DNA of 64,000 nt from Xanthomonas hortorum (GTDB lineage Bacteria > Pseudomonadota > Gammaproteobacteria > Xanthomonadales > Xanthomonadaceae): positions 2,801,001 through 2,865,000 of the forward strand of contig NZ_CP101417.1 in the NCBI RefSeq assembly GCF_024339125.1, given 5' to 3'. The position numbers and the translations under genes are program-made. The notes beneath the pieces were generated by a model. The model was given only the letters and a program-made list of their open reading frames with translations. It was not told the origin of the DNA and did no database searches. Of the stretch, positions 1,941-48,342 are shown in pieces (position 1 is the first letter of the stretch; every line of letters starts with the position of its first letter).

Positions 1941-2049
1941 GGGCCCTTGCCCGCCCACCATCGCGGGACACGCCGCAAGTACGTCCGTGTAGGCTCTTAC
2001 GCGGCATCCATGCCGCGTAAGGTCCCGCGACGGTGGGCGGGCAAGGGCC
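1941..2049 (+). repeat. Dispersed structured palindrome, type A copy 1
   Basis: Inverted arms GGGCCCTTGCCCGCCCACC and GGTGGGCGGGCAAGGGCC enclose a conserved single-stranded core (CGCCGCAAGTACGTCC) and an inner stem-loop around GCGGCATCCATGCCGC. The same sequence recurs at 2148-2256, 48234-48342 (reversed) and, interrupted by an insertion sequence, at 43740-45116. It is intergenic with no ORF of its own. It looks like a small non-autonomous or REP-like element. Confidence 0.88.
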
Positions 2050-9101: not shown

Positions 9102-9247
9102 GAGTGGCTAACAAAACGTAGTGAGGGGTCGTCAGGTGGGTGCGGGCGGCGCGCTCAGAACCGGAGTGTACGAGTGGTACATGCCGCGCCGAGCACAGAC
9201 CGCGCCCGCCTGGTGGCGGTGAGCGCAGTCGTTTTGTTAGCCGCTCT
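9101..9247. mobile_element. MITE-like long-hairpin element
   Basis: The ends AGAGTGGCTAACAAAACG (9101-9118) and CGTTTTGTTAGCCGCTCT (9230-9247) are inverted with 17 of 18 matches. The complementarity continues inward (CAGGTGGGTGCGG with CCGCGCCCGCCTG) to a central TGTAC-GAGTG-GTACA turn, so the whole 147 bp folds into one hairpin. No ORF is inside. I see no clear target duplication. The left end begins within the yjeT stop codon. Confidence 0.75.
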
Positions 9248-22535: not shown

Positions 22536-22710
22536 GGAGCCTCGAAACTCCGCAGACAGCGGTACCCACCTCCGACAAACCGGTGGGTTTTTTGTGCCTG
22601 CAACTTTTGTGGGTGCAACCGACGTGATGCTCTGCGTCGGGAGGGCGGCTAATACAACACCCGCAAGGGGAATACGCCCGCCGGCTGTCTGCGGTTTCGA
22701 GCCTCCCGAC
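22536..22710 (+). ncRNA. Structured leader with alternative pairings and an internal terminator
   Basis: The left arm GGAGCCTCGAAACTCCGCAG (22536 on) pairs with the right arm CTGCGGTTTCGAGCCTCC (22689-22706), and flanking GACAGC/GCTGTC extends it. The right segment CCTCCCGAC (22702-22710) can pair instead with GTCGGGAGG (22636-22644). Between the left arm and that segment lies a terminator hairpin (22564-22593). Alternative stems plus a terminator upstream of two coupled genes look like an attenuator or cis-acting RNA. I do not recognise the family, and a stand-alone small RNA is possible. Confidence 0.5.
22564..22593 (+). terminator. Terminator-like hairpin inside the leader
   Basis: ACCCACC (22564-22570) pairs with GGTGGGT (22582-22588), followed by a run of six T. 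It lies within the larger inverted repeat, so it may be conditional. Confidence 0.75.
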
Positions 22711-22766
22711 TTCCCGTCTGTCGCTTTGCGGCGGGCGGGCTGATTCCATGGAATGAGGAGCAGGCC

Positions 22767-43424: not shown

Positions 43425-43449
43425 TCGCGTTGTAGAGCGGCTGATCTGC

Positions 43450-43803
43450 GGGTTTGCTGCAGGGCCCTTGCCGTCCCACCATCGCGGGGCACGCCGCAAG
43501 TACGCCCTTGTAGCGTCATCGGTACGTTGGTTTGCGGCTGATTGCGGGTTTGCTGCAGGGTCCTTGCCGGCCCACCATCGCGGGACACGCCGCAAGTACG
43601 TCCTTGTAGCGTCATCGGCACGTTGGTTCGCGGCTGATCTGCGGGTTTGCTGCAGGGCCCTTGCCCGCCCACCGTCGCGGGACACGCCGCAAGTACGTCC
43701 GTGTAGCGTCATCGGCACGTTGGTTCGCGCCTGATCTGCGGATTTGCTGCAGGGCCCTTGCCCGCCCACCATCGCGGGACACGCCGCAAGTACGTCCGTG
43801 TAG
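43450..43803 (+). repeat. Tandem array of four palindrome half-units
   Basis: Units start at 43450, 43546, 43643 and 43740 (periods 96, 97, 97). Each begins GGGTTTGCTGCAGGGCCCTT or close to it, carries the left arm and core of the type A palindrome up to TACGTCCGTGTAG, and ends with CGTCATCGGCACGTTGGTTC. The fourth is the left half of the palindrome interrupted by the IS110 element. Confidence 0.9.
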
Positions 43804-43871
43804 CAACTGTGTTGATCAGGACCTCAACCCGCGACCTTTGAGCGGTTTCCTTCAGGCGCGTTCATCGGTAG

Positions 43872-43900
43872 GTGCCGGCCGCTGGCCGGCACGCTTTTTT
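43872..43900 (+). terminator. Terminator-like hairpin in the IS110 right end
   Basis: GTGCCGGCC and GGCCGGCAC form a 9-bp stem around GCT, followed by GC and six T on the plus strand. It could stop outside transcription entering the element. Confidence 0.75.
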
Positions 43901-43927
43901 GCGTTTGCGCATGGCCGTCAAATGCGC

Positions 43928-44851
43928 TCAGGCGGGCTGCATGGCGGCTCTTTCATCGCGCACGCGCGCATTGAGGATGACCAGCATCTTGCGCATCACC
44001 GCCACAAGGGCGACCTTGCCCTCCTTGCCGCGTGCCCGCAGCGCTCTGTAAAAATCGCGCAGACGTGGCTCGTGCCGAGCTGAGGACATGGCCGCCATAT
44101 ACAGCGCCTGTCGGATGTCGGCTCGGCCTCCGCCAATCCCCCGTTTACCTCGCATCGCGCCGCTGTCGCGCGAGAGCGGGGCAACGCCAACCAATCGGGA
44201 TATCTGCTTTCCGCTGAGCGTCCCAAGCTCTGGTAACCGGCACGCCAGCACGGCCAGCAGCACCGGACCGACCCCTTTGAGCGTCTTCAACGCAGCCAGG
44301 TGCGGTTGCTCGGTGAGTAGCGTCTTCAGCTGCCCGGCGATCAGTTTGTCTAACCGCGCCACACTGCGCACAAGCTGGTTCACGTTGCCCTGCAGCAGCT
44401 TGCGCAGCGCTTTTTCCGCAACCTGCAGCAGCTGCTGCCTTGCTGTTTTCAACAGATCCACCAGTTGCCGACGGGCACGCACATGCTCGCCCAGATCGCG
44501 CTGCCATGGTTCCAGTGGAACATACTGATGGAGCTCCATCTTCTCGGCCATGCAGGCCAACATGGCGGCGTCCAGCCGGTCGGTCTTGGCCAGTCCCAAA
44601 CCGTTGGCCAAGTTGCGTGCCCGTTGCGCATTGACGCGCGCCACCGGCAATGCGGCGTGATGCAAGGCATCCAGCGCTGCCAGCTCGTAGCCCCCGGTCG
44701 CCTCCAGCACCACCTGCCGCACCGACAGCGTATTCAGCCAATCGACAAGCTTCCGATGACCGCCTGCGGTGTTGGTGAACTGACGGGTCTGGCCTCGAAA
44801 AACCGCAACGTCAAGAGAGTGTTTGCACACATCGATCCCGATTCCGCTCAT
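43928..44851 (-). CDS. IS110-family transposase (DEDD/RuvC-like plus Tnp20)
   Basis: This is a full-length 307-residue transposase. The N-terminal RuvC-like domain has the acidic set: Asp in GIDVCKHSLDVAV, Glu in LEATGGYE, and the DxxD in AKTDRLDAAML. A coiled-coil linker (about 125-175) follows. The C-terminal Tnp20 domain has VGVAPLSRDSGAMRGKRGIG with the candidate nucleophile Ser. No frame is broken, so it may be active. IS110 enzymes recombine DNA guided by a bridge RNA from the element's own non-coding end, which is found directly upstream here. Confidence 0.95.
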   Translation of the reverse strand: MSGIGIDVCKHSLDVAVFRGQTRQFTNTAGGHRKLVDWLNTLSVRQVVLEATGGYELAALDALHHAALPVARVNAQRARNLANGLGLAKTDRLDAAMLACMAEKMELHQYVPLEPWQRDLGEHVRARRQLVDLLKTARQQLLQVAEKALRKLLQGNVNQLVRSVARLDKLIAGQLKTLLTEQPHLAALKTLKGVGPVLLAVLACRLPELGTLSGKQISRLVGVAPLSRDSGAMRGKRGIGGGRADIRQALYMAAMSSARHEPRLRDFYRALRARGKEGKVALVAVMRKMLVILNARVRDERAAMQPA

Positions 44852-44879
44852 GGGAAATCTCCGCTAGGCTAGAAATGTC

Positions 44880-45059
44880 GAGAGCTCCCTCGCCTGCCCA
44901 GTCTTATCGTTTCGAGTGTCACCTCGGGCAACTGTTCGGGCGAATCAAGGGAGAATCCGGCGTGGGTACCAAGCTACACGGCGATCGCTGAGATCCAGGC
45001 TCTCACGGTGGCCCACGCCGGCTCTCGACACCTAAACTGCCAGATTCCGAACAGATAAG
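44880..45059 (-). ncRNA. IS110 bridge RNA region
   Basis: This is read on the plus strand for simplicity. The outer stem CCGGCGTGGG (44957-44966) and CCCACGCCGG (45012-45021) encloses CTACACGG (44974-44981) and AGGCTCTCACG (44997-45007). These match the two sides of the insertion site: CTACACGG is complementary to CCGTGTAG at 43797-43803, and AGGCTCTTACG follows from 45058. A second loop, closed by CTCCCT/AGGGAG, holds CTTATCG (44903-44909) and GCAACTG (44928-44934). These match the element ends (CAGATAAG at 45052, complement; GCAACTG from 43803). Target loop first and donor loop second on the RNA strand is the known order. Exact RNA ends cannot be read. Confidence 0.82.
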
Positions 45060-45116
45060 GCTCTTACGCGGCATCCATGCCGCGTAAGGTCCCGCGACGG
45101 TGGGCGGGCAAGGACC
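45058..45116 (+). repeat. Right half of the palindrome interrupted by IS110
   Basis: AGGCTCTTACGCGGCATCCA and onward to GGGCGGGCAAGGACC are the inner stem and distal arm of a type A palindrome. The matching left half is at 43740-43803. Confidence 0.9.
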
Positions 45117-45260
45117 AGTCGAGATGGTGGGTGTGTATGGTTAAAAGCAATGCATAGCGTGCTTCTGACTCGATAGCTCACCTGTAGTTCTGCTACCCGC
45201 ACCAGCAAGCCGCGATTCGCGAGACCACCAGCTTTTACTCAGCTACCGACCAACTCTCTG

Positions 45261-48233: not shown

Positions 48234-48342
48234 GGTCCTTGCCCGCCCACCGTCGCGGGACCTTACGCGGCATGGATGCCGCGTAAGAGCCTACACGGAC
48301 GTACTTGCGGCGTGTCCCGCGACGGTGGGCGGGCAAGGGCCC
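48234..48342 (-). repeat. Dispersed structured palindrome, type A copy (reverse)
   Basis: This is the same element as at 1941, in opposite orientation: GGTCCTTGCCCGCCCACC at one end, CTTACGCGGCATGGATGCCG inner stem, core GCCTACACGGACGTACTTGC, then the closing arm to GGGCAAGGGCC. Confidence 0.88.

Follow-up and report, generated by a model that had tools for sequence, protein, structure and literature searches.

Does the insertion sequence at this locus choose its target through an RNA whose guides can be read against its own insertion site? The window, by which we mean the whole 64,000-nucleotide stretch of DNA analysed, lies in a Xanthomonas genome of 5.44 Mb present as a single contig. A sequence-only reading of the window had proposed an IS110 element at 43797 to 45065. 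We found that the transposase domains bear out the IS110 identity, while the proposed span overshoots the element by 6-7 bases at each end. We consider it highly probable (roughly 0.93), on sequence grounds, that this insertion sequence belongs to the IS110 group and selects its target via a bridge RNA; elements of this kind are already known from the IS621 bridge RNA and from seekRNA. Comparison with copies and relatives shows the ends, target, fold and guide-target covariation of the element, and the positions of two -10-like hexamers. The fresh points are the assignment of the small RNA sX15, an attC-like lineage with an IS110-type layout, a closing stem and a long right guide; the portions of PMC11208160 and PMC11187229 that were available mention none of them. 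The first reading did not include the dispersed repeat as target, the sX15 match on the opposite strand or a bridge promoter complete solely across joined ends.

The element, its repeat and its guides

The element covers 1,256 bp of the minus strand (43804 to 45059), a length that counts one CT core, the left one. Five copies compared with empty repeats fixed these ends and placed the core CT at 45058-45059 at the left junction and at 43802-43803 at the right junction. The translated open reading frame of the transposase (43928 to 44851, minus strand, 307 aa) matches DEDD_Tnp_IS110, the RuvC-like DEDD domain, and Transposase_20 with its conserved serine, as expected of the IS110 group. Residues D7, E50, D91, D94 and S230, which we take to be catalytic, are invariant in an alignment of seven sequences. 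The nearest named transposases are those of Xanthomonas sp. LMG 31884 (99%), Xanthomonas sp. Leaf148 (94%) and X. arboricola pv. populi (92%), together with a 126-residue piece from X. cannabis (96%).

Read directly, the non-coding left end 5' of the transposase is 208 bases from core to start codon, the length first given for it and a layout typical of IS110, and 124 bases follow the stop codon at the right end. The IS1111 group is marked by a long right end, long subterminal inverted repeats and an RNA downstream of the transposase. We rejected this group because the guides lie upstream of the transposase and the right end extends just 124 bases past the stop. A match to the TIGR-Tas model was also discounted (25.8 bits, far below the cut-off of 100).

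The five copies in the genome are 99-100% alike. All of them interrupt one dispersed repeat in constant orientation to it, with GTAAGAGC-CT on one side and CT-ACAYGG on the other, and the flanking repeat sequence varies among them. The right flank is CTACACGG in four copies and CTACATGG in the remaining one. By genome self-comparison the interrupted repeat of the window lies on the minus strand, with its left part at 45058 to 45162 (query 9-113) and its right part at 43727 to 43803 (query 1368-1444). The 13-base repeat centre AGAGCCTACAYGG occurs uninterrupted 133 times in the genome, and the reversed pattern 0 times. Uninterrupted centres stand at three places in the window (1985-1997, 2192-2204 and 48286-48298). 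Beyond the element, at 43437-43707, the right half of the target repeat recurs three more times head to tail; in these copies CTACACGG or CTACAAGG is preceded by GATGACG in place of the left half.

On the minus strand, CCGGCGTGGG (45021-45012) pairs with CCCACGCCGG (44966-44957) and closes a target arm at 44957 to 45021, the stem-closed loop for which matches to both sides of the insertion site had been claimed. We read these matches as follows, with support from the flanks of relatives. The left target guide CGTGAGAGCCT (45007-44997) agrees with the left flank CGTAAGAGCCT at 10 of 11 positions and would form a G-T wobble with the bottom strand at the remaining one. The right target guide CCGTGTAG (44981-44974) agrees with the right flank CTACACGG at 8 of 8. 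At the variable base of the repeat a guide G could pair with C or form a wobble with T, so one guide may serve both alleles. The second loop was likewise found to match the element's own ends, as in other IS110 elements: the left donor guide ACAGTTG (44935-44929, minus strand) is identical to the right end at 43810-43804 (7/7), and the right donor guide CGATAAG (44909-44903, minus strand) agrees with the left end CTTATCT at 6 of 7. The loop order, target then donor, and the CT core on the transposase strand both proved to be as described.

Identical loops at unrelated sites had been named as an outcome that would refute guidance. We found instead that the bridge-RNA regions of the five genomic copies are 100% identical over 182 bases and that the copies share one position in one repeat.

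The predicted bridge RNA and the strand opposite

The predicted bridge RNA (44877 to 45029, minus strand) is about 153 nt long, with its start placed from the -10-like hexamer, and folds into a closing stem, a target arm and a donor arm. This fold was more stable than 200 of 200 shuffles (z -2.97). Over 21 relatives 86.1% of cells were paired, compared with a shuffled mean of 77.5% and with 34.1-46.2% when the sequences were slid, and the covariation score was 0.267 versus 0.117. The target stem was paired in 99.5% of cells, with compensatory changes on both sides at 8 of its 10 pairs, and the closing stem, which joins the 5' and 3' ends of the RNA, in 97.0%. The count of pairs with both-side changes was reached in 30 of 500 shuffles and that of further pair types in 124 of 500, neither clearly above chance. 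A two-loop fold not conserved among relatives had also been put forward as evidence against the reading; we found the two-arm fold to be kept, with a weak outer donor-arm helix (55.4% paired). An Rfam match to Ysr224 was discounted at 17.8 bits, far below the cut-off of 70.

In place of the closing stem that pairs the RNA ends here, IS621 has a separate 5' stem-loop (PMC11208160). That stem-loop, absent from the fold in the window, belongs to a published 103-sequence consensus and is not claimed as family-defining in the portion of that paper available.

The -10-like hexamer of the bridge promoter, CAGTTT, lies at 45034 to 45039 on the minus strand and is a weak consensus match (5/12). Its -35-like partner, TTGCTT, exists only in a circle, where 43806-43804 is joined to 45059-45057. 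Among relatives the joined ends give TTGCTT or TTGACT across the core, the TTG being supplied by the search rule. In 33 of the 34 distinct elements this is followed by xAxxxT at a spacer of exactly 17 nt; no more than 11 have it at any other spacer. The mean consensus match was 6.26/12 for joined ends and 3.35 for integrated ones (5 and 2 for the window element), and a promoter scan of the integrated element returned 0 promoter-like sites. By sequence, then, a promoter is completed across the joined ends, with a weak consensus match; such a promoter has been described for IS110 (PMC11208160).

We infer transcription, the circle, recombination and any effect of sX15 by analogy with IS621 and ISPpu9. 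Excision would join the ends of the element into a circle, and the join would complete a promoter (TTG from the right end, CTT from the left, 17 nt, then the -10) from which the left end would be transcribed to give the bridge RNA. Its first loop would pair with both strands of the dispersed Xanthomonas repeat GTAAGAGC-CT-ACAYGG and its second with the joined element ends, and the transposase would recombine the two CT cores. Once integrated, an element would have a bridge promoter with no -35, and transcription of the opposite strand, yielding sX15, may begin from a promoter next to the start of the transposase.

Rfam catalogues sX15 (RF02234) as a stand-alone Xanthomonadaceae sRNA. We found that this model matches 44877 to 45034 on the plus strand, its catalogued strand and antisense to the predicted bridge RNA, at 170 bits over its full length (model 1-159; gathering cut-off 55), and that it matches all five copies. 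Two other Rfam matches in the window exceed their cut-offs, sX9 at 9106-9182 (minus strand) and sRNA-Xcc1 at 22636-22718 (plus strand). A family survey gave sX15 matches in 20 of 119 genomes, 13 above the cut-off, and in 0 of 14 control genomes. When 30 sX15 loci were fetched, tblastn with the window protein found a transposase at 21; the other nine include contig ends, two element remnants and one sub-threshold locus.

A -10-like TAGGCT (44865 to 44870, plus strand) stands beside the transposase start, 6 nt before the 5' end of sX15. In a leader comparison in which that 5' end was set by a stem motif and many leaders are close kin, TANNNT stood at exactly 6 nt in 37 of 55 distinct leaders. 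Another 18 occurrences lay at 3, 4, 5, 7 or 8 nt and a single one at 17 nt, with none at any other distance within the 0-44 nt scanned. Because of the motif-set 5' end, the kinship of the leaders and the nearby ribosome site, the hexamer may have other causes.

Our data suggest that sX15, on its catalogued strand, is the antisense of the bridge-RNA region and resembles Asr9 of ISPpu9, an assignment that is possibly new. Among the papers searched, none joins Asr9 with a bridge RNA and none names RF02234; antisense RNA, bridge RNA and IS110 co-occur in one, and sX15 appears with Xanthomonas in two, in one of them as a table entry. ISPpu9 shares with the window element membership of the IS110 family, insertion in REP sequences, an antisense RNA over the transposase leader and a promoter at the ribosome site (PMC8450116). 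Asr9 was described there as an aid to translation, before bridge RNAs were known, and a second RNA, Ssr9, is present (PMC8450116). IS621, in contrast, comes with no such catalogued antisense family over its bridge region in the available part of PMC11208160.

A doubtful but possible alternative is that sX15 is not a separate RNA at all: the Rfam strand would be wrong or the signal read-through, and TANNNT would be kept solely through the transposase ribosome site. The hexamer does adjoin the ribosome-binding region, and visual inspection of the leaders revealed no conserved -35 for sX15. Its exact 6-nt spacing in most leaders argues the other way. We presume that sX15 is one of the 24 sRNAs listed for Xcv. 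The study behind that list used dRNA-seq (PMC3771888), which also favours a separate RNA, as does Asr9, an antisense RNA that has been mapped by experiment and is arranged alike, its -10 overlapping the ribosome site (PMC8450116).

If sX15 is such an RNA, we propose, quite tentatively, that an anti-guide is built into the IS110 elements of this clade. The sX15 made by integrated copies, a perfect complement of the bridge RNA, would pair with bridge RNA made from the circle and so set copy number or timing, and it may also open the transposase leader to translation. Overproduction of Asr9 raised ISPpu9 transposition 3 to 3.3 times (PMC8450116), which speaks against a plain inhibitor role. Were the proposal true, what Rfam lists as an independent Xanthomonas sRNA would in fact serve to control an RNA-guided transposon and, with Asr9 as a second case, such an arrangement may be common in IS110. 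Since an orphan sRNA family is tied to the strand opposite the bridge RNA, control of bridge RNAs becomes testable.

Guides and targets among relatives

A covariance model built from the 21 sequences was run on 398 genomes of the order, and 46 of them, including some from which the model was built, gave a match at E 1e-6 or better. With left-end DNA as query, matches turned up in 23 of 35 genomes of the genus. A scan of named genomes with a single transposase gave only 4 loci, so whole genomes were used instead. Flanks were read by rules resting solely on donor-side motifs. This gave 137 loci, of which 76 were used and 61 dropped, mostly for want of a right end readable by the donor rule (often at a contig end) and otherwise for want of a left end or because of N. 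Some loci were one place fetched repeatedly (for example L061, L067 and L101), and were collapsed to distinct loops before testing.

Among the 76 rows, 26 have CT-CCTAC on the right, in REP-like palindromes, 23 are of the window's repeat type and 10 are attC-like. The rest comprise 8 with GCGCTC, 4 with GTGGAT and 2 with CGGCT on the left, and one each of three others; CCAACCC-CT-CTCCCG is among the single-row types, most loci of that type having been dropped for N or contig ends. The repeat GCGTGGAT-CT-ACTG is named as a target beside the Xanthomonas repeat and the attC-like site. The names attC and REP are our assumption for these sequences. The attC-like rows have CTAAC on the left in 10 of 10, and GTTAGG within 75 nt on the right in 7 of 10 (all but L035, L038 and L167).

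Whether each target loop tracks its own flanks was then examined in 33 distinct loops, three of the 36 (L063, L117 and L121) being left out for a duplicated left end or decay. With offset windows chosen after inspection of the loop and flank readout, the own guide-target score was 467; none of 20,000 permutations reached it, the highest being 394. The own score was also above the best permutation for 25 distinct targets (347 versus 299) and for 12 hand-picked target types (172 versus 151). At least 7 of 8 right-flank positions matched in 24 of the 33 real loops, compared with 2.0% of 5,000 shuffled-flank trials. Loops thus follow their own flanks better than permuted ones, though target by target the own loop beat all others in 10 of 25 and was tied or beaten by at least one other in 15. 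The worst case was L211, where up to 8 of 24 other loops tie or beat the own loop; left matches were poor in L211 (4/10) and L045 (5/10).

When eight hand-picked types were scored without the core, the true pairing reached 89/112 and was alone in doing so among 40,320, the next-best permutation standing at 85; the own loop was best in 8 of 8 rows. The right strand scored 11.1/14 and the wrong strand 7.6. Letting positions go free narrowed the gap (own mean 11.25/14, other loops 9.34, own donor arm 9.5). The target loop therefore covaries with the insertion site on both strands, as has been shown in thousands of natural IS110 elements (PMC11208160).

In a tree of 33 transposases, seven target groups require six changes, the minimum; the eighth type lacks a readable frame. 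Because target types follow the tree, the permutation numbers rest on few independent switches. This pattern is also what would be seen if the transposase protein itself recognised each repeat and the likeness of loop and flank had another cause, such as captured flanking sequence. We regard this as very improbable, since the loops match at fixed positions and in the strand sense expected of a bridge RNA, and RNA guidance has been shown experimentally for the family in IS621 (PMC11208160) and seekRNA (PMC11187229). Guides also follow the repeat allele within the window's own clade, where GGAG guides go with CTCC flanks (L117, L122-L124) and GTAG guides with CTAC. One exception, L062, has a GTAG guide and a CTCC flank, so its guide departs from the repeat allele at one position. 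Less probable still is an old set of insertions whose five copies arose through recombination or duplication of the repeat and not by guided transposition: near-identical copies inside a many-site repeat would fit, but the repeat sequence around them differs, and relatives whose loops differ are found in different repeats, again at the CT core, several of them having 2-6 copies in separate locations.

Guided choice of target by a bridge RNA thus remains our reading, and it sits close to known systems. With IS621 and other IS110 elements (Durrant et al. 2024, PMC11208160) the window element shares the transposase domains, an RNA in the left end, target loop before donor loop, a CT core, REP-type targets and a promoter across joined ends. 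The right guide differs in that it extends about 6 bases past the core, compared with a 4-base right guide in IS621 that by our count includes the core. With the seekRNA elements of IS1111 and IS110 (Siddiquee et al. 2024, PMC11187229) it shares a guide RNA from a non-coding region, and REP and attC targets occur there as well. The attC-targeting members named in the available portions are of IS1111 type with the RNA downstream, whereas the attC-like lineage here has it upstream, as in IS110.

It is possibly new that one IS110-group clade moved between repeats and attC; a single natural re-direction, ISEc11/ISXne4, is described for seekRNA elements (PMC11187229). The clade forms a natural reprogramming series, with one transposase type and eight loop-readable target types including the attC-like lineage. 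It supplies ready guide-target pairs, with a right guide longer than that of IS621, for probing the rules of bridge RNAs.

Several single loci deserve mention. One genome carries two attC-type copies (L158 and L159) about 3 kb from each other, an arrangement that a cassette array would be expected to show. Left-end remnants (L041 and L042), from two genomes of the genus other than that of the window, keep both loops with repeat sequence directly behind, and no transposase was seen at either. L063 and L070 each have a tandem duplication of the first 16 left-end bases. Finally, L118 combines a left flank of the window's repeat type with a right flank, CTCTCCCG, from another repeat, perhaps through recombination between elements in a genome rich in decayed copies.
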